A DNA stretch of 24,877 nucleotides from a virus. Made by a program: the position numbers and the translations under genes. Below the pieces are notes generated by a model, which made no database searches, was not told where the DNA came from, and was given only the letters and a program-made list of their open reading frames with translations. Position 1 is the first letter of the stretch; each line of letters starts with the position of its first letter. The stretch covers positions 1 to 24,877 of the IMG/VR virus record IMGVR_UViG_3300022538_000128. One strand, given 5' to 3'. Below, in pieces: positions 14,604-23,781 of the stretch.

Positions 14604-14744
14604 ATGCATTACTTTCTTATCGGGTTAGCTATCGTCGGTCTGTTTCTAATTGTCACCCTTGAACATACAAAGGTGGCTTTCGGTGTCTTGATATTACTCA
14701 TTGCCTTCATCATTGAGGAGGTATGGCGACATGCTTTACGGTGA
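14604..14744 (+). CDS. Small two-helix membrane protein, 46 aa
   Basis: The peptide has an apolar helix at residues 3-18 (YFLIGLAIVGLFLIVT) and another at 24-38 (VAFGVLILLIAFIIE), with a short charged loop and a basic end (WRHALR). No ribosome binding site is visible, again with a promoter -10 just upstream. The last nine bases overlap the 3' end of the giant minus-strand gene, so the two are convergent. A nine-codon frame from the ATG at 14599 is the competing start. Function is unknown. Confidence 0.5.
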   Translation: MHYFLIGLAIVGLFLIVTLEHTKVAFGVLILLIAFIIEEVWRHALR

Positions 14745-17700
14745 AGGCCATGTCTTCAAAAAATCCATCGCCTCTTTTGCCAATCTTGTTTTTTCCTTTT
14801 CGCATTGGTCAATCAATTCCCTTTTCCTCTTGCTGTCTAAATCAGGCGAATCGTAAATTTGATTCTCTATTCTCCCTATCTCCGTCATATTCCTACCAAT
14901 GCGCCTTAACGCCCTCGCCGTCTTGGAATAAAACTCTTTATATTGGTAGTCGTAAAATAACAACAGTTCCGGATGAGCAGTCTTGAGCCTCTCAGCCTCG
15001 CTAATCTTTCCTAAGCGTACCAATTCCTGAAAGTGATTCTCATACTGCTCATATTGCTCTACCGTCCTGTAGAATCTATTTACTGACTCGCTAGATGAGC
15101 CGATGGGGTTGCGTACTACAAAGGATTTTATTACAGGCATTTCACTTAATTCTTTTGACGGCTCAGGGATATTAGAAGCTATGCCGATTCCCTTCAAAAT
15201 GCCATCTATAGCTTCTACTGTATATCGCCCCAATCCAGCAGTCCAAGCATAGAGCCAATTATCTATCTTTGCAGGCGGTAATTTAAGCCACTCACCCATC
15301 TTTTTAGCACTTTCAGATGTATAGTGGGTGTATTGTAATTCAGGTGGCATTTTCTGCCTGCTTTCTGGAACGATTTGTCTTCCCATGAAGAAGCTGTAGT
15401 TGGTCATCCACTCCAAAGCAGGAAGAGCAAAGGTGGGAATAAAACCAGGAGAGCCAGCCTCCATTAAATTCATAGCAGTCTCTTCCAGCAATGCTGGGTC
15501 ACGCTCATCCAACCACTCAAGAAAACGCTCCGGGACCGAACCAAAAATAATCCCTAGTTCAAAGGGCTTAGGGATTCGATAAATGTTATCCTCCGTCATA
15601 ATTATCCAGAATAAATCCTTCTGCCATTGGGGGATTTCTTTCCATCTAGGATCGCCCCTATTCACCATATAAAGCACGACAGAGGGCATCGTAATGCCAC
15701 CAAAAACCTTAAAAGATGTCTTTAGGGGTTGTTCTCTGAAAGCTCGAATCAATTTATCCCAACCTTGGACATTGGCATTAAAGAAGGCGATAAACTGGTT
15801 CAGTACCTTGCCTGCAGTTCCCATTCTGGAGAAGTCCAGACTAACTTCCTTTGAAGCAAATCCAGCTTGGGGGGGAGTAACACCTTTGGCTAGTGCTTGG
15901 CGAAATTCCCCAAGACGTGTCCCTTTTTCACCCGCCTCACTGACTACTCTTAATGCTTCTATGGGATGCTTGAAATATTCAACTGCTGGCTTGCCCTTCA
16001 GGACTTGTTGGAATGTCTTTGTTAAGTATTCCCTATCTACTGAAATAAGCATAGAATGTTCAGCACCAGACATGCGATAAAGCCAATAGGCGTCACTCTT
16101 GCCAACCATATCAGCCACACCTTTAGTAAAATCTATGCCTGGCATAAATCCGTACTTAGAATAGACAAAGGCAGTCATTTGGTCTCTTATTGGATTTCTA
16201 GCCATAAAATCAGGACTTAGCGTAGCACCTGCCCTCAGCCATCTTGTCGGCGCTGAGAAGAATCTACCAATCGTTCCCATTTGCTCTCTGTCCAAAGCCA
16301 AAAGTGCATCTCTTATGTCATCATCAACCTTAAAGAACTTTGCCTTGCCCTTTATTAAAACTGTGACCTCGTTGCCCTTCGCCACCATAGATGGCCTGAA
16401 GATGTTAATGGCTTGATTTACTAATTCATCCGATAAACCTTCACCCTTCAGCCCCAATTCCTTAGCTGTGACTGATGCGACTTTAGACATAGGGGTTTTT
16501 ATCGGAGCAAAAAGTTCTATTAAGCCAGGATTCCTGTCAACTAGATTTGCCATCATTATGCCGACCTGGTTTCTTTCACCGGCACTAACGATGAGATACG
16601 TATTACGCACCATACTCTCTAATGGATTGATTATCTGCCTTTCTGAGCCCTTGATTCGCTTCACGGGAGAGGTGATATTTGCCATAGCCTTCCCCATATA
16701 GCCCTTAACTTGTAATTCCTCGAAGACACGGTTAAATGGGACATAAGAGCCATATTTAGCCTGCATCCTCTTTGTGGCCACATCGCTAATCAAGCCCGTC
16801 TCCTTAGCATAATTGAGAAGCTCCCCATTATATTTATGGACCTTCTCAGCCACACCCTTAAAGACAGGGTACATCTTTTCAAGCTCCCTTATAGATGCTT
16901 TAGCTAAAGCAGGCTTAATCCCTGTCTTTATTCCATATTCAGTGAGCTCAATAGAATGTTTGCTTGTAAGATAGGTTGCAAAGTCTTGCCACGTTGCTCC
17001 TTCGCTCACGGGTTTGAGAATATCAGTAAGCCCCTCACCCACGAATTTTGGCTTGGTGACACCCTCCGCAACATCCCAATATTCCTTGCCCATTGTGCCT
17101 TTTTCCAGCCAGACATTTGCCTTACTCTGCCAGCCCCTCAGTAGTCTAGCGGTAATATACGGGTCCGCCCTTGCCGGAATGTCCGCACCTGCCTTTACCG
17201 CTGCATCTCGGAACTTCCGAATGGCATAAAGGTCATCCAAGAGCTTCTTGTTGAACTCAACCCATCCTCTCCCTAACTTTTCAGATAATGGCCGTTTCGG
17301 CGCTTCAAAAGCTATATGTTGAGCGACATCATCGGTTGCTTTAAGCCCGCCCCTAGCAACTTTGGGTATTATAGGCGCAACCTCTTCCCCCACCTTTGCA
17401 GCAGCCGGTGAAACTAATGGTTCTGGTGCTAACTTAGCCGCAACTTCAGGGGCAGCCTCAGCAGCCTTTGGTGCTACTCTAGCAACCTCTTCAACCACTT
17501 CGGTGAAAGCACCCTTACCCTTCTTTATGACTTCTTTAACGAATTGGTCTGTAGCCTTGCCGACTGCTTGTGTGGCAGCTTTGTTAGACATTCCCTTTTC
17601 CACCAATTCCAGAACCAATTTCTCGCCTGTAGCACCTTTTTTAAGTGCGCCTAAAACCAGTTTTATAGCCGTCTTGCCCGCGATTGGACCTTTCGCTGTA

Positions 17701-19160
17701 GGTTGAAGCCACAAGACAGGTTCGGCCATCCTTGCTACTCCGCCAGCGAGTGGATGCTCTTCTTCCCATTCCCTAAACGGCTGCCCACCACGCCACGGCT
17801 CTGTAACCATAGCCGCCCATCTGGTTTCCCATTCCTCATACTGTTCAGCCATCGGTTTTGTAGCACTAATGAGCTCTCTAAAAGCCTCACGCCTGTCTTC
17901 TGGTACTGGCCCATATTTCTCTTCGAGCCTTCGGAGTATAAGCTCACGCCTCTCCGCATCGGTATCCAGTAATCCAGGAGTGGGTGCTTCCCTAACCTCA
18001 GCTTCAGGCAGTATTGTCCTTACCCAGCCTCTTAATCCCATTCTTTGTATTACGGCACGGGTTAGAGGTGTATCGCCAGCCTGACGAATAGCAGCAACAA
18101 ACCCTTCAGGGTCTGCCTCGGCGAAATCTACCATTTCTGTTATATCAGCCTCAGTAAATTCACCCTCCAATCTCTCAATCACACCAGGTATGGTCTTAGC
18201 TTCCTCTAGCGTATATTCGGTCCCCTCTGGGTCTGTTACTCGATCATCGCCTAGCTTCCACCCGTTAGGCGTCGTATATTCTAGTTGATAGGCTGTGGGG
18301 ACTGGCTCTATTTCCCCTTGGTTTATACCAGCCTGAAATTCCCTTAACTCTTGCTCCCATTCGCTCAAAGGAACAGGCTCAACACCCCAGCCATACACCC
18401 TTTTCAACTGACTGAGATATTCCTTCCGTATAGCAGGTGACATAGTTGTCAAATCCTGCCCTGATAACTCTTGAAGGGCATTAAGGTCGGGTTCTGTAAC
18501 AGCAACACCCCAGCCTTCGGGAATACGCCCCATCCGCTCGTCACGCTCTATGTGAAGTAGATTGCGATATGCCTTCCTTAAACTGTCTCGATAAATCCTG
18601 CGTTCCTGCGGGGACATTGCCCCAATATCCCTAGCTGGGAAAGCCGTAGTTATGTCCAGTCTAGCAGATAAGTCCCTGATCCCCGCTAAGTATTGGTCTT
18701 CCGACCGTATGTGTAGCGTGGGGACACCGCCCGGCGGTGTGATTTCTTCATAACCAACAGGTGCTTTCCACTCAGGCTCCGCCAACCGCCTCTCTTCTTC
18801 TAACCTTTGTTCTTCCAGTAGCCTTGCTTCTTCTACACGCTTCCGTTCTGCTTCCTGCTCCTGTTCCAGCGTAGTACCCCAGGGCATTGCCGCAGCAGGC
18901 TCTTCTAGTAGTTGCTTTTGTTCCTCAGCAGCTTTCTTCGCCGCCTCTTCTTCTAATCGCCTCTGCTTTTCTTTCTCATGCGCTTGTACGTGCCCAGCAA
19001 GCGCCGCTTCACTCTTAAAGCCCGCACCGCAAATCGGACAGGTAAATGACACTTCAGGCTTCACTGGAGCGGGTTCCCCAAAGCCTTTTTCAGCAGTGGC
19101 AACCCCACCTTTATCCCTTCTTTCGGTATTACCGAATAACGTATCCAGGAAAGTCGGCAT
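14736..19160 (-). CDS. Giant LPD38-like polyvalent protein with N-terminal C2H2 zinc finger, 1474 aa
   Basis: Residues 41-61 form a C2H2 zinc finger (Cys41, Cys44, His57, His61; C-x2-C-x12-H-x3-H), followed by a Glu/Lys/Gln coiled coil to about 120. Residues 150-420 hold repeated helical units with Pro/Glu-rich links. Ala/Pro/Val-rich linkers span 520-610. From about 640 to 1330 the sequence matches what I know of the large polyvalent-protein-associated LPD38 region, with ARNPIRD near 985 and FIAFFNANVQGWDKLIRAF near 1118. The C-terminus is charged and helical. Such proteins are thought to travel inside the virion and enter the cell with the DNA. Its place after the portal agrees. The start touches the stop of the 84-aa gene (TAATG). 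No nuclease or polymerase motif was spotted. Confidence 0.7.
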   Translation of the reverse strand: MPTFLDTLFGNTERRDKGGVATAEKGFGEPAPVKPEVSFTCPICGAGFKSEAALAGHVQAHEKEKQRRLEEEAAKKAAEEQKQLLEEPAAAMPWGTTLEQEQEAERKRVEEARLLEEQRLEEERRLAEPEWKAPVGYEEITPPGGVPTLHIRSEDQYLAGIRDLSARLDITTAFPARDIGAMSPQERRIYRDSLRKAYRNLLHIERDERMGRIPEGWGVAVTEPDLNALQELSGQDLTTMSPAIRKEYLSQLKRVYGWGVEPVPLSEWEQELREFQAGINQGEIEPVPTAYQLEYTTPNGWKLGDDRVTDPEGTEYTLEEAKTIPGVIERLEGEFTEADITEMVDFAEADPEGFVAAIRQAGDTPLTRAVIQRMGLRGWVRTILPEAEVREAPTPGLLDTDAERRELILRRLEEKYGPVPEDRREAFRELISATKPMAEQYEEWETRWAAMVTEPWRGGQPFREWEEEHPLAGGVARMAEPVLWLQPTAKGPIAGKTAIKLVLGALKKGATGEKLVLELVEKGMSNKAATQAVGKATDQFVKEVIKKGKGAFTEVVEEVARVAPKAAEAAPEVAAKLAPEPLVSPAAAKVGEEVAPIIPKVARGGLKATDDVAQHIAFEAPKRPLSEKLGRGWVEFNKKLLDDLYAIRKFRDAAVKAGADIPARADPYITARLLRGWQSKANVWLEKGTMGKEYWDVAEGVTKPKFVGEGLTDILKPVSEGATWQDFATYLTSKHSIELTEYGIKTGIKPALAKASIRELEKMYPVFKGVAEKVHKYNGELLNYAKETGLISDVATKRMQAKYGSYVPFNRVFEELQVKGYMGKAMANITSPVKRIKGSERQIINPLESMVRNTYLIVSAGERNQVGIMMANLVDRNPGLIELFAPIKTPMSKVASVTAKELGLKGEGLSDELVNQAINIFRPSMVAKGNEVTVLIKGKAKFFKVDDDIRDALLALDREQMGTIGRFFSAPTRWLRAGATLSPDFMARNPIRDQMTAFVYSKYGFMPGIDFTKGVADMVGKSDAYWLYRMSGAEHSMLISVDREYLTKTFQQVLKGKPAVEYFKHPIEALRVVSEAGEKGTRLGEFRQALAKGVTPPQAGFASKEVSLDFSRMGTAGKVLNQFIAFFNANVQGWDKLIRAFREQPLKTSFKVFGGITMPSVVLYMVNRGDPRWKEIPQWQKDLFWIIMTEDNIYRIPKPFELGIIFGSVPERFLEWLDERDPALLEETAMNLMEAGSPGFIPTFALPALEWMTNYSFFMGRQIVPESRQKMPPELQYTHYTSESAKKMGEWLKLPPAKIDNWLYAWTAGLGRYTVEAIDGILKGIGIASNIPEPSKELSEMPVIKSFVVRNPIGSSSESVNRFYRTVEQYEQYENHFQELVRLGKISEAERLKTAHPELLLFYDYQYKEFYSKTARALRRIGRNMTEIGRIENQIYDSPDLDSKRKRELIDQCEKEKTRLAKEAMDFLKTWPSP

Positions 19161-19414: not shown

Positions 19415-21117
19415 TTTGACTCTCCTAGCGTTTTTGCTTGCCGTGCTGTCTGAACAGCCTCCTGCCCAGTTCGCTTGGCCTGTTCTGTCGCTAATTTCTC
19501 AGACGGAGCCCTGCCAGGGTATATCTCCTCCTTGGGCTGCGAAGCGGCATTGGGGGGCGGTCCCATCGCTACGGGCGTTTGAGCCAACTGGTCTTCCAGC
19601 GCTTTCATAATCAATCTAGCCTTTATCTGATTTATCTTTTCCTCAGTCACATCGCCAGCGGCCAGTCCTATGGCTGCATCTGCGAGTTCCAATGTAGGTA
19701 AGATATTGTATAATCGCTCCAATTTAGCAGCCCTCAACATACCAGATGGGTCTTCTACTCGCATTACGTTTCTAAAAATCCATTCAGCGGGGAATCCAAT
19801 CGCCTTTAGCTGTTGGGATAGCTGTGCATTAGCGATGTTTTCCTGCGGACTAACCGAGTCGTAGCTGAAACTGACCATGAATTTATCCTTAAAGATGTCC
19901 TTGTCAATCTCAATTGCATCCTCTTTGGCAACTTTTGTCTTAAAGCAAGTCCCTGTGATTTGTCTGCGTAATGACGTGCATATCTTTCGGTACATCCCCG
20001 ATTTGACTTTTCGGCGTGGCACTATTACCTTATCTCTGTCGCTCTTTAGGTCAGCTATGGCAAGAGCAGAAAGCTCGATGTTCAACTGTCCCAAATTCAC
20101 ACTAGACATCGTGGCACGTTCCCACCTTTGGAATAATAGGGTGAACAATGTCTGCGCCGAGGGGGTCATATCCCTCAAGGGTATTGCATCGAGTTTTTCA
20201 TTCTCATTTAGCTGAAGCACAATCCCATACCCGAATACATTTGCATTCTCCATATCTCGTGTGCCGTAATAAACTAACGGGGTCATAAATTGCTGTTTGT
20301 TGATTGTTGCCCAGATAGAGGAGACTTCATTTAAGGAGGGTATTAAACCTCGAACTGGCGCATACACAGACTCGCCCTGCCTTGACAATGCTTCGGCATA
20401 ATCTCCTCCACCAGTGCCAATTAAAAGAGGTTGTGTGGGCACGGCCATAATTTCAACAGGGCAGAACCCTAAATCATGCACAACTGTTTTTAGCGGTACA
20501 TCACCACTTTTAATCCTCGCATCGGTGGACTGGAATATGTTGAACTCCTTATCATCCCACACGCAACTCAATTCCACATCAGCTTTAGTCCCCAGTGTTT
20601 TTTTATAAGTCTCTTCCGCTTCGAGCCGCCCCATGCGTATTCTATAAGAACGCCATTTCTTACCCTGTTTGTCGATTCCCCACATCATCCATCTGGGGTC
20701 TAACGGCTTAATAACGGGAAGATATTTATCACCGTCTTTATACATCAACACTAAAGCACCAACCCAGCCACGGAGTAACGCAAAGAAATTAAAGCAAGTA
20801 TCAAGAGGCTCAATCAGTTCTTCGGCTAAACTTTCATCATTCACATACAGATAGTTGCTAATTTCTTGCTCTAACTTACTCTGGATTGCTGGGTCAACGC
20901 CCGTTATATCCATCGTTCTCTTGTCAAGAGTCAGTATAGACATAGCGGCATCACCGAAAACACGTGGATCATTAAGCGTGATATTACTGACATTCTCTAG
21001 CGGCTTCCCGTCTTTATCGCTCAATAAAAATGTCTTTAGATAATAAAGATTAAGGTCATCATCCATACGCTTGTGCAAGGTTTCAAAATTCTTTATTGCG
21101 TCATTTGTATTTATCAT
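19411..21117 (-). CDS. Portal protein, 568 aa
   Basis: Size, neighbours and sequence fit the dodecameric portal through which DNA enters and leaves the head. Visible hallmarks are the N-terminal helical region with TLDKRTMDITGVDPAIQSKLEQEI, an aromatic strand LLRGWVGALVLMYKDG, PVIKPLDPRWMMWGID, the central stem region ERATMSSVNLGQLNIELSALAIADLKSDRDKV, and a wing with KDKFMVSFSYDSVSPQENIANAQLSQQLKAIGF. The C-terminal 60 residues are Lys/Glu/Gln-rich. The start overlaps the terminase stop as ATGA, the canonical terminase-portal order. A 13-base palindrome (CTCTTGTCAAGAG, 20918-20930) inside the gene resembles the cassette repeats but encodes the protein and may be chance. Confidence 0.85.
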   Translation of the reverse strand: MINTNDAIKNFETLHKRMDDDLNLYYLKTFLLSDKDGKPLENVSNITLNDPRVFGDAAMSILTLDKRTMDITGVDPAIQSKLEQEISNYLYVNDESLAEELIEPLDTCFNFFALLRGWVGALVLMYKDGDKYLPVIKPLDPRWMMWGIDKQGKKWRSYRIRMGRLEAEETYKKTLGTKADVELSCVWDDKEFNIFQSTDARIKSGDVPLKTVVHDLGFCPVEIMAVPTQPLLIGTGGGDYAEALSRQGESVYAPVRGLIPSLNEVSSIWATINKQQFMTPLVYYGTRDMENANVFGYGIVLQLNENEKLDAIPLRDMTPSAQTLFTLLFQRWERATMSSVNLGQLNIELSALAIADLKSDRDKVIVPRRKVKSGMYRKICTSLRRQITGTCFKTKVAKEDAIEIDKDIFKDKFMVSFSYDSVSPQENIANAQLSQQLKAIGFPAEWIFRNVMRVEDPSGMLRAAKLERLYNILPTLELADAAIGLAAGDVTEEKINQIKARLIMKALEDQLAQTPVAMGPPPNAASQPKEEIYPGRAPSEKLATEQAKRTGQEAVQTARQAKTLGESK

Positions 21118-23357
21118 CCAAATCTCCAGACCTTTACTTTGCTGCTTTGGGGTATGCCCGCATTAAATTCTGATATGATGTACCGAACTGCATCACAATT
21201 GGAAACCAAAACACCGTTCGCAAAATATTCGTGAACGGTGTCTACAGTTAGGTTATATACAGGTTGTTTGCAATTTACCCTTACGCTTAAGACATATGAG
21301 CTTTCTTCCGCATGTTCTTGAACAGGTAACTGCTCTTGCGTATTTATTTCTGATAAATTGGCCTTTACAGATTGGGCAAATTCGAATTTCATTATCGCTT
21401 CCAGTCTTGTAGCGATAAGCCGTTCTGCATCTGTTAGAACAAAATCTATTTCTCCCTTTGGGAATGCTTTGATACTTCCTACCACACATTTCGCAGATAA
21501 ATTCAATTGGCTTTCTATTGGCAAGACTTTGTTTCCAGTGTTCACTATGCCATCTTCTGCCTTCTGGTGAGCGATGCCATTCCTTTGTAAGAGGCTGTAT
21601 CCGCTCAAGATGTTCAAGATCGTAGATATGACTTGCATTATGTTCCGAAATGTGTGGCTTACCCTTTTTAGCCACAAGATTAGATAGATTATTGTTGAGT
21701 GGATTATTGTCTTTATGGTGTATATGATAGCCTTTAGGAATTTCCCCAAAGGCATCTTCCCAAATGGCACGGTGAAGATACCCAAGGGATGACCTAAAAT
21801 AAACACGGTCAGCCCGTCTCTTCGCTTTAGGGTATCGGTGATAGGCAGTTCCGTTGAAGTTAATGGTTTCTCTTTCCATGTCTCTATCATATCATAATAA
21901 CGCACCGAGTTCAATGGAACAAAGCCCTTCCCTTGAATATAAATAGGGTGTTCTCCTGTTCCTGTAAGCGAAGTACCATTAGAAAATCCCACCGTGATTG
22001 TATCTGCTTCATTTTGGGTCATCCCAGATGCCATAACAGGGGAATAACCCTGCCGTGTGGCTACTAAATCTCCAACCTTAACATCCTCGATGGGTTTAGC
22101 TCCATCTATTATTTGTATTTGAGTACCCTCTATAAGGCATAAATGAAATCGCTCTTTTTCTTTGATTTTTTCAGTGGCTTCGTATCTTTCATCTAGTTCC
22201 CTGCTATATGTTTGGAAGTCTTCAAGAAGGCGGGTCATATCATCAAACAGAAACATCTTATTCAGTTTGTGGAAGGCATAAACCCTATCAATGCCCACTT
22301 CAACGTCTTTTATGTAGGGCTTTGACACTCTCCAATCGGCAACCGAAAAGCTCTCACGCCACCCATCTTCACTGGCTGCGCCGCCAACACGTTTGATTAT
22401 GTTTTCATCCTTAGATAACTCTCTTAATGCCTGTGCATGCTCGGCAGCCGACATCCCCCCGGCTAAATACTCCCGATAGCCATAGAGGTTGCCTGTAGTG
22501 GGTTCTAAGGCAAAGAACACGGCGGCGGTATTGCTGCCACCGAAATCCATACCCACATAGCAAGTCCACTCTTTAGGGATAGGGAATCTTTTTATAATGC
22601 AGGTCTTTTCGTCAAAGGCATCATAAATCAACCCTGCGGGTTTTGAATATCGCCCTCGGTAAAATAAATCAAACTTCCAGGAGGGCATTGTAGCTTTTGC
22701 CCTTTCGTATTCATCCCTGGGAAACCCTGGGCAATCTATTGAATCAAATTGGATAACATCTATATCAGGATCACCCTCCAGCCACCTCAGGTAAATCTCA
22801 TTTTTCAGCCAGCCCGAAATGTTATAGAGGGTTGTAGTCCCCAAAATTCGTCCAGCACCAAAGCCAGTTGCTCTTCCTACCCTTCTTAAAACTGCATCCC
22901 AAGCCTGCCTACCAAACCCCTCTTGCCCACATTCATCTAGCCACGCTGCATTAGCAGTAACTGATTCGATAGACCCTGGGTTATCGGCAGAACAAAGAAA
23001 AACCCTGCTATCAGAGTCATAGAACTGAAACACCTTTTTGGAAAAGTTATATTTCCCTAAATTATGGTAATCTTGAAAGAGTGTCAGGAACTCTCTCTCT
23101 AACTTCTTCTCAAGAAGGGGGAAAGTGGCGCTAACAATCAGGTAATCACCCTCGCCGCAGGTGTCTATCTCACGATATAGCCAATCACACCCAAATACGG
23201 TCTTCCCGCTTTGATTGCCGGCGAGCAAAAAGATAAAACGCTTGGTACTTTCCCACGCCTGTGTTTGCCCTTTGTGGAAATTCTTTCTTAGGGTTTGAGT
23301 ACCATTTTTATTGTTTATAAGCTCACGGTAAGCAGGAATCTCAATCGCTGTTGGCAT
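21114..23357 (-). CDS. terL: Large terminase subunit interrupted by an intein, 747 aa precursor
   Basis: The ATPase carries a Walker A motif GNQSGKT (47-53) and a Walker B-type WLDE near 139-142. The nuclease begins with GMDFGG (Asp271) and ends with CDAVRYIISEF directly after the intein. The precursor holds an intein at residues 407-720, and the ligated exteins would give a 433-aa enzyme, the normal size. The longest frame begins with a TTG at 23363, but AGGAA sits seven bases before the ATG at 23357, which I take as the start. It overlaps the small subunit by 17 bases. The protein cuts and pumps phage DNA into the head. Activity should depend on splicing because the nuclease motif is split from the rest. 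Confidence 0.92.
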   Translation of the reverse strand: MPTAIEIPAYRELINNKNGTQTLRKNFHKGQTQAWESTKRFIFLLAGNQSGKTVFGCDWLYREIDTCGEGDYLIVSATFPLLEKKLEREFLTLFQDYHNLGKYNFSKKVFQFYDSDSRVFLCSADNPGSIESVTANAAWLDECGQEGFGRQAWDAVLRRVGRATGFGAGRILGTTTLYNISGWLKNEIYLRWLEGDPDIDVIQFDSIDCPGFPRDEYERAKATMPSWKFDLFYRGRYSKPAGLIYDAFDEKTCIIKRFPIPKEWTCYVGMDFGGSNTAAVFFALEPTTGNLYGYREYLAGGMSAAEHAQALRELSKDENIIKRVGGAASEDGWRESFSVADWRVSKPYIKDVEVGIDRVYAFHKLNKMFLFDDMTRLLEDFQTYSRELDERYEATEKIKEKERFHLCLIEGTQIQIIDGAKPIEDVKVGDLVATRQGYSPVMASGMTQNEADTITVGFSNGTSLTGTGEHPIYIQGKGFVPLNSVRYYDMIETWKEKPLTSTELPITDTLKRRDGLTVFILGHPLGIFTVPFGKMPLGKFLKAIIYTIKTIIHSTIIYLILWLKRVSHTFRNIMQVISTILNILSGYSLLQRNGIAHQKAEDGIVNTGNKVLPIESQLNLSAKCVVGSIKAFPKGEIDFVLTDAERLIATRLEAIMKFEFAQSVKANLSEINTQEQLPVQEHAEESSYVLSVRVNCKQPVYNLTVDTVHEYFANGVLVSNCDAVRYIISEFNAGIPQSSKVKVWRFG
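21253..21879 (-). CDS. HNH homing endonuclease, overprinted inside the terL intein, 208 aa
   Basis: The frame is shifted relative to terL on the same strand (the ATG begins at the third base of a terL codon) and opens at the first ATG after an upstream TGA. It begins like free-standing phage HNH proteins (ETINFNGTAYHRYPKAKRR), then YLHRAIWEDAFG (His36) and YHIHHKDNNPLNN (His54, His55, Asn62), the ββα-metal nuclease core. Two zinc ribbons follow: Cys129/132/147/151 and Cys168/171/186/190. These would bind the target. It ends inside the Hint-C coding part. No Shine-Dalgarno precedes the ATG. It would cut intein-free terL genes to spread the intein. Both frames are open over its full length. Confidence 0.9.
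   Translation of the reverse strand: MERETINFNGTAYHRYPKAKRRADRVYFRSSLGYLHRAIWEDAFGEIPKGYHIHHKDNNPLNNNLSNLVAKKGKPHISEHNASHIYDLEHLERIQPLTKEWHRSPEGRRWHSEHWKQSLANRKPIEFICEMCGRKYQSIPKGRNRFCSNRCRTAYRYKTGSDNEIRICPICKGQFIRNKYARAVTCSRTCGRKLICLKRKGKLQTTCI
21886..21914 (-). promoter_or_regulatory. Possible leaderless promoter for the overprinted HNH gene
   Basis: On the minus strand, TTGAAC (21914-21909), 17 bases, and TATGAT (21891-21886) form a fair sigma-70 promoter inside the intein coding sequence. Six bases (AGAGAC) then lead to the HNH ATG at 21879, so the expected transcription start falls on or beside the A of the ATG. No ribosome binding site exists, which a leaderless message would not need. 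Predicted only. Confidence 0.4.
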
Positions 23358-23781
23358 CTGCAATTTCCTGTGTTATTTTTTTAGTTTCAGTCACGCTGAC
23401 TTTGCCGTAATCCTTCACGATTTCCTCTCTGGTTATTTTGATGCTCTTTTTCTCTTCCCTGTAAGTCCTTTCCCCAAACTCCTTCGGAGCGAGATTCTTC
23501 AGCATGAAAATAGCAGCGGTCACATTAGGCATTTGGACTTTAATAGTCTCATCAGTAGCGACACGGAATAAGAAACTCGCCAGCCCGTCGACTCGTTCTG
23601 CCGTGAGTTTTTCATACTCACGCCTGAACTGCTCATCCTTGCAAGTCCATAGGTGGACACACTGCCTCGTGATACCCACTTCCGTGCACGTCTCAGCCTG
23701 TGCGCGTAATGGGTTTTTCTGGGGATACACTTGTAAAAATGCAGCCTTCTTTTGGTCAGTTACCGCTTTTGGTGTAGGCAT
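23341..23781 (-). CDS. terS: Small terminase subunit, 146 aa
   Basis: Position directly before the large subunit, with a 17-base overlap, and a helix-turn-helix-like N-terminus (QKKAAFLQVYPQKNPLRAQAETCTEVGITRQCVHLWTCKDEQFRREYEKL) match small terminases, which bind the packaging site and load the large subunit. The middle (ERVDGLASFLFRVATDETIKVQMPNVTAAIFMLKNLAPKEFGER) is the usual oligomerising part, and the C-terminus is charged. The start follows the previous stop by one base (TAATATG). Assignment rests on the HTH pattern and synteny. Confidence 0.8.
   Translation of the reverse strand: MPTPKAVTDQKKAAFLQVYPQKNPLRAQAETCTEVGITRQCVHLWTCKDEQFRREYEKLTAERVDGLASFLFRVATDETIKVQMPNVTAAIFMLKNLAPKEFGERTYREEKKSIKITREEIVKDYGKVSVTETKKITQEIADANSD

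Follow-up and report, generated by a model that had tools for sequence, protein, structure and literature searches.

The textbook intein is either a single protein whose nuclease domain is in frame or a pair of split halves. Fractured genes, in which the halves of a split intein are separated by a free-standing endonuclease, were reportedly described by Dassa et al. in 2009, and the intein gp41-1 is presumably of this split type. The terminase large subunit (TerL) inteins of mycobacteriophages carry in-frame LAGLIDADG endonucleases and all lie in the ATPase domain (PMC5050341). In the ShiLan domain and the Pacc40 gp60 insertion, an open, in-frame insertion in a phage gene encodes, in an alternate frame, an HNH protein with zinc fingers (PMC11855218); leaderless translation was proposed for this protein, for which no ribosome-binding site was found and no promoter shown (PMC11855218; Arsenault, Gosselin and Gogarten 2025). 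Here we analyse a viral DNA of 24,877 nt (IMG/VR record IMGVR_UViG_3300022538_000128; 'the window' denotes this whole stretch) whose terL gene contains an intein and, within the intein, a homing endonuclease gene (HEG) of the HNH type in a different frame. We consider it very likely that the element is a mini-intein of the splicing type, located in the nuclease domain of terL, and that its homing endonuclease is encoded separately, by an HNH gene that overprints the intein in a fixed alternate frame.

An HNH gene overprinted in a terL intein

The terL precursor open reading frame (ORF) is open along its whole length, and the HNH gene lies out of frame within its intein (Table 1), as a preliminary description of this DNA had claimed; the coordinates and motifs given there (a 314-codon intein, a 208-residue HNH protein and two zinc ribbons) are borne out by the ORFs, by Pfam and PHROGs matches and by the intein blocks. 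These searches recognised terL, traces of Hint and HNH_3 in the window. The intein is inserted before the +1 Cys of a conserved terL motif (FHL/CDAVRYI) and carries the sequence marks of a class 1 cis-splicing intein (N-terminal Cys or Ser, block B TxxH, block F, C-terminal Asn and +1 Cys, Ser or Thr), here an N-terminal Cys, block B TGEH (T61, H64), block F VYNLTVDTVHEYFANG and the C-terminal junction VSN/C. The HNH protein is matched by Pfam HNH_3 (E 1.9e-14) and by PHROG 15471, HNH endonuclease (E 1.1e-38); H54, H55 and N63 of its nuclease motif are invariant in the alignment, and both zinc ribbons are of the CxxC...CxxxC form. Among solved structures, I-HmuI is the closest to the HNH protein in sequence (E 0.002) and is also the best Foldseek match for the predicted structure, with a weak E of 0.027.

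In an AlphaFold model of the intein built on 35 aligned inteins, the ordered part (residues 1-89 plus 279-314) matches 6riz in Foldseek (TM 0.88 on the target) and resembles gp41-1, the nearest solved intein, as well as further Hint domains. The model thus predicts with confidence a gp41-1-like Hint domain whose halves fold without the linker, which supports the earlier suggestion that a free-standing type of HEG had entered a mini-intein whose frame was kept open. The HNH ORF covers intein residues 88-295, and the overlap is mostly disordered loop: linker residues 90-278 are for the most part an out-of-frame reading of the HNH gene, and the first ~17 codons of the Hint C-half double as the C-terminal tail of the HNH protein.

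Table 1. Coordinates of the terL precursor, its intein and the overprinted HNH gene in the window
Feature	Position	Strand	Remark
terL precursor ORF, 749 aa, contains intein	21114..23363	-	PHROG terminase large subunit, E 1.8e-31
terL N-extein, end ...KERFHL	22140..23363	-	
Intein, 314 codons, Cys1 to Asn314	21198..22139	-	Nearest solved relative gp41-1
Hint N-half, intein residues 1-89	21873..22139	-	AlphaFold pLDDT about 95-98; Foldseek gp41-1
Intein-frame linker, residues 90-278, predicted disordered	21306..21872	-	AlphaFold pLDDT 39-64, mostly <60
Hint C-half, residues 279-314	21198..21305	-	AlphaFold pLDDT about 94-97
terL C-extein CDAVRYIISEFNAGIPQSSKVKVWRFG	21117..21197	-	
-35-like hexamer TTGAAC, 17 nt before -10 element	21909..21914	-	
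Extended -10-like element TGATATGAT, ends 6 nt before HNH ATG	21886..21894	-	
HNH endonuclease ORF (208 aa), complete from ATG to stop, in offset 2 to the terL frame	21253..21879	-	AlphaFold mean pLDDT 91
HNH_3 nuclease motif, residues 35-70, LHRAIW...IHHKDNNPLNNNLSNL	21670..21777	-	
HNH zinc ribbon 1 (C129, C132, C147, C151)	21427..21495	-	Invariant in alignments
HNH zinc ribbon 2 (C168, C171, C186, C190)	21310..21378	-	Alignments

The listed terL start is a TTG at 23363, and an ATG two codons downstream, at 23357, is the likelier start. Elsewhere in the window, a 1474-aa protein is encoded at 14736-19160; it has an LPD38 domain and, close to the N-terminus, a C2H2-like zinc finger.

Nested HNH genes among related loci

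Within genes labelled 'terminase large subunit', a tblastn search of annotated phages found nested HNH genes in Tetrasphaera phage TJE1, Acinetobacter phage Highwayman and Rhodobacteraceae phage MD07; an unannotated faecal contig carries a further copy, and all four share the offset of the window gene. Among 115 loci selected by their HNH gene, 77 were nested in offset 2, two in offset 1 and none in frame; 16 had the HNH gene between intein halves on separate ORFs, 18 had no intein and 2 were partial. A first scan with an intein profile gave 77/77 nested, a biased figure because the query included the linker that is the shadow of the HNH gene, and to remove this bias a second sample of 80 loci was picked solely by the intein C-terminal motif; 72 of these were nested, six were mini-inteins lacking the HNH gene and two were truncated. 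The search for the shifted frame in related inteins that the preliminary description had recommended thus yielded, in the union of the samples, 179 unique nested inteins, of which 177 are in offset 2 and two in offset 1; grouping at 85% nucleotide identity leaves 176 clusters. In-frame HNH homologues, which it had named as counter-evidence, were found nowhere among the relatives in the HNH-selected and C-motif samples. All 170 nested inteins with clear borders have Cys1, a +1 Cys, Ser or Thr and HN or SN as the last two residues, and in these the HNH stop lies a median of 18 codons before the intein end. The overprinted arrangement is therefore real and widespread, and is the norm for the sampled intein group.

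The host genes match terminase large subunit PHROGs in 48 of 53 cases scanned. The usual insertion region is a DALRY-type terL motif, with a few inserts at other terL sites; among the latter, one intein (L120) stands before a DELAAW motif that we read as Walker B-like and another (L092) before DVARFG, which by our reading resembles the first nuclease motif. The proposed origin from a mini-intein also gains support: mini-inteins without an HNH gene exist, one of them (L222) in the same terL motif as the window intein, and free-standing relatives of the HNH gene adjoin terL or terS in many phages, as beside terS in phage BP10 (Acinetobacter).

Intein halves on separate ORFs, the mark of a fractured gene, are not found in the window, where the host frame is open through the HNH gene; they are found, with hidden Markov models, in the 16 sister loci counted above, the starts of the C-terminal half (IntC) having been checked in 14. 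In the fractured terL loci (L013, L034, L036, L045, L055, L057, L067, L068, L083, L100, L105, L110, L112 and L113) terL with the N-terminal half (IntN) is followed by the HNH gene and then by IntC-terL on its own ORF with a possible start codon, which in some loci is preceded by a site like a Shine-Dalgarno (SD) sequence. Lactobacillus phage CL2 (L013) belongs to this group, and at the fractured loci the annotated terL lacks its C-terminal piece.

The two loci that use offset 1 (L066 and L077) have related inteins, with zero stops where 9-12 would be expected, and their nesting is likely to have arisen independently, from a split-type intein lineage. Resolution is poor in the HNH tree (110 rows), which is silent on the number of nesting origins; the offset-1 pair L066 and L077 alone stands out in it as one group.

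A number of single loci depart from the usual layout. One terL (L279:2243-4975) holds two inteins four residues (CDEI) apart in a Walker B-like motif; the second is a mini-intein, and the linker of the first looks like an out-of-frame nested HNH gene. Two others (L043 and L051) also hold two inteins each, the extra one near the N-terminal P-loop region (in L043 long and in-frame) and the intein with the out-of-frame HNH gene downstream. In Brochothrix phage BL3 (L005, 2196-2523) an HNH remnant, just the C-terminal zinc ribbons, lies between the intein halves, and terL is annotated as truncated. Acinetobacter phage vB_AQ1 (L140, 3001-5421) has a terL-portal fusion in which the terL C-terminus is lost near the intein insertion motif; this is a deletion or an assembly error. 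Finally, one nested HNH intein is located on a contig of 2.3 Mb that bears the label Thermoplasmatales archaeon (L097), so that archaeal viruses or proviruses may also carry the element.

Mobility of the intein with its nested gene

Compared with the terL gene of Acinetobacter phage Acba_21, that of Highwayman contains an exact insertion of 981 bp (327 codons), and the remaining 1302 bp show 15 mismatches, all within -163 to +12 of the insertion. Homing is expected to leave a mismatch tract of this kind through co-conversion, and the tract indicates that the intein and the nested HNH gene move as one unit; presence and absence of the insert together with co-conversion, by which homing is recognised, are thus both seen in Highwayman. 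The 41 other Acinetobacter phage records with similar terL genes gave no equivalent full-length match, and the closest is exactly intein-free. A search for empty sites corresponding to L098, L099 and L051 found none.

These comparisons also bear on the possibility that the nested HNH protein serves the phage in terminase cutting or packaging, as HK97-type HNH proteins are reported to do, instead of homing. The position of family members next to terL or terS would fit such a role, and co-operation of HNH proteins with terminase at cos has been discussed (PMC10448857); given the similar terL genes that do without the element, and co-conversion around the Highwayman insertion, we regard this explanation as unlikely.

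Putative start signals of the HNH gene

In the window, the HNH start is preceded by a promoter-like layout (TTGAAC-17-TATGAT plus an upstream TG), and since the -10 element ends 6 nt before the ATG, +1 would fall on the A of the ATG and a leaderless mRNA is predicted. Single promoter matches are cheap (5 were found in the window region where 5.0 were expected), so support for the promoter has to come from the family as a whole. Nine starts in the first sample match the -10 element at 7/8 when the spacing is 6, compared with 0-3 for each other spacing; among 100 held-out loci 18 do so, with <=3 at any other spacing. The Ile codon that overlaps the -10 element is ATA in 12/13 cases in the first sample and in 22/26 held-out cases, against 162/448 in the background (P 1e-6). 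Additionally, -35 matches of >=5/6 occur in 11/38 cases versus 0.4 in control registers. SD-like sites stand before the first ATG at 60 other loci, compared with about 9 in control windows. Promoter and SD site occur together at 0/99 loci (Fisher 3e-9), an exclusivity that we do not count as separate evidence, since both motifs would have to occupy the same nucleotides. In the window, the HNH protein is probably translated from a leaderless mRNA that an internal sigma70-like promoter would produce.

Ribosomal frameshifting out of the intein frame, giving an intein-N-HNH fusion, would account for the nearly constant offset and for an HNH start placed right at the end of the Hint N-half. Enrichment of SD sites before the first ATG, a promoter element at fixed spacing and the use of the other offset at two loci speak against it, and we judge it somewhat less probable still than a role in packaging.

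Chance and selection on the two frames

The preliminary description had put the chance of a second open frame of this length near 4 in 100,000, which is too strong for one locus: when the codons of the window HNH gene are shuffled synonymously, 4% of trials keep the intein frame free of stops, with 2.2 stops expected, whereas about 27 are expected in the third frame. The reason is that the intein frame is naturally stop-poor. It is the comparative evidence that places the arrangement far beyond chance: where about 12 would be expected, 81 HNH cores of the first sample are open in the intein frame, and the nested cases total 179. Stops in the intein frame number 0 in nested copies and usually 1-12 in split or free relatives.

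The further claim that both frames are maintained is true in a different sense for each frame. Codon-position patterns in nested pairs show that the HNH frame is under purifying selection. Intein-frame identity exceeds a simulation of HNH-only constraint in nested pairs, but the controls show a similar excess, and in the dual-frame test linker conservation is not above that in split and free control pairs; therefore we claim no residue-level selection on the linker. Purifying selection on HNH residues together with the stop-free intein frame indicates that the HNH protein and the openness of the frame are maintained, and not the linker sequence.

HEGs are known to decay, and a once in-frame endonuclease domain, shifted by an indel and now a decaying remnant, or else an assembly error, might be considered; the HNH ORF is intact and retains every catalytic and zinc residue, its frame is under the selection just described, no in-frame relative was found and the offset is nearly always the same across 176 diverged clusters, which makes this explanation highly improbable. 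The same holds for a group I intron removed at the RNA level, for although introns often house HNH genes, no Rfam family reached its gathering score anywhere in the window, the frame is open and it encodes a confident Hint fold.

A proposed separate nuclease inside a continuous intein

Under the explanation that we prefer, a splicing intein with an overprinted HNH gene, the TerL precursor would be translated through the HNH DNA, giving a disordered loop, and would splice to active TerL. The HNH protein would be made separately, in the window by way of the internal sigma70-like promoter and a leaderless mRNA beginning at the ATG, and in many relatives from an internal SD start. It may then cut terL copies that lack the intein, close to the site of insertion, and repair with the intein-bearing copy as template would spread intein and HNH gene jointly. 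Splicing of the element, cleavage by its HNH protein and activity of its promoter are what we infer here.

Several observations weigh against this explanation or parts of it. The penultimate residue of the window intein is Ser, which occurs in 46/170 relatives, His being the commoner state. Of the 167 nested copies that have an ATG, 68 show neither a promoter nor an SD signal; at several loci a good -10 element is not followed by an ATG 6 nt later, and part of the -10 match is a coding shadow, because the element overlaps codons for a conserved intein Asp-x-Ile/Leu. Moreover, a distant search of the window region found no close intein-free relative of the window, so that its own mobility is deduced from Highwayman and the evidence concerns the family. 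The -10 signal that survives the coding shadow consists of the fixed ATG spacing, the ATA bias and the -35 enrichment.

A broader proposition, for and against which we see about equal weight, is that a large class of phage inteins divides its two functions between overlapping genes: splicing resides in the late TerL frame, and a second gene, whose alternate frame is nearly fixed, encodes the homing nuclease. In part of the class (the window included) this gene would be transcribed from a promoter in the intein N-half as a leaderless mRNA that starts at the ATG, with homing expressed independently of the host gene.

Comparison with known systems

Beside in-frame domains and split halves, overprinting within an uninterrupted intein constitutes a third architecture; it accounts for about 90% of one sampled intein group, where annotators often label the element as an ordinary TerL. 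It suggests a route by which a free HEG makes a mini-intein mobile without domain fusion, and the natural series of free, split and overprinted HEGs offers material for studying how mobile inteins form. In addition, it adds more than 170 diverged cases to the long genes known to overlap on one strand, and offers a concrete, testable answer to how the hidden nuclease is expressed, namely from an internal leaderless promoter or an internal SD site. The arrangement is not unique to the window; in the open-access literature that was searched, we found no out-of-frame HEG in a splicing-competent intein, the cousin in PMC11855218 lacking an intein and a 2025 preprint on actinobacteriophage inteins of 'non-canonical architecture' possibly overlapping. 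The overprinted architecture is apparently undescribed.

Like the canonical LAGLIDADG TerL inteins, the element joins a splicing domain and a homing nuclease in one DNA unit within a TerL host; unlike them, its nuclease is a separate protein in another frame with its own start, and its site is mostly a terL nuclease motif. With I-HmuI-like and free-standing phage HEGs (PMC10448857) it shares the HNH motif and relatives beside terL, but here the gene is nested in an intein with overlapping frames and its product has two C-terminal zinc ribbons. The ShiLan domain and Pacc40 gp60 resemble it in having an HNH protein with zinc fingers in the alternate frame of an open insertion; they lie in DNA methylases and contain no intein splicing domain, whereas in the window a complete splicing domain surrounds the HNH gene, which sets it apart from out-of-frame HNH insertions of the ShiLan type. 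With fractured genes, finally, it has in common an HEG at the split position, and sister loci of its own HNH family are fractured (L013 of CL2, L034, L055, L105 and others); here, in contrast, the nuclease is an HNH_3 protein with two zinc ribbons and the intein reads through in one frame, so that trans-splicing is not needed and overprinting replaces the split.
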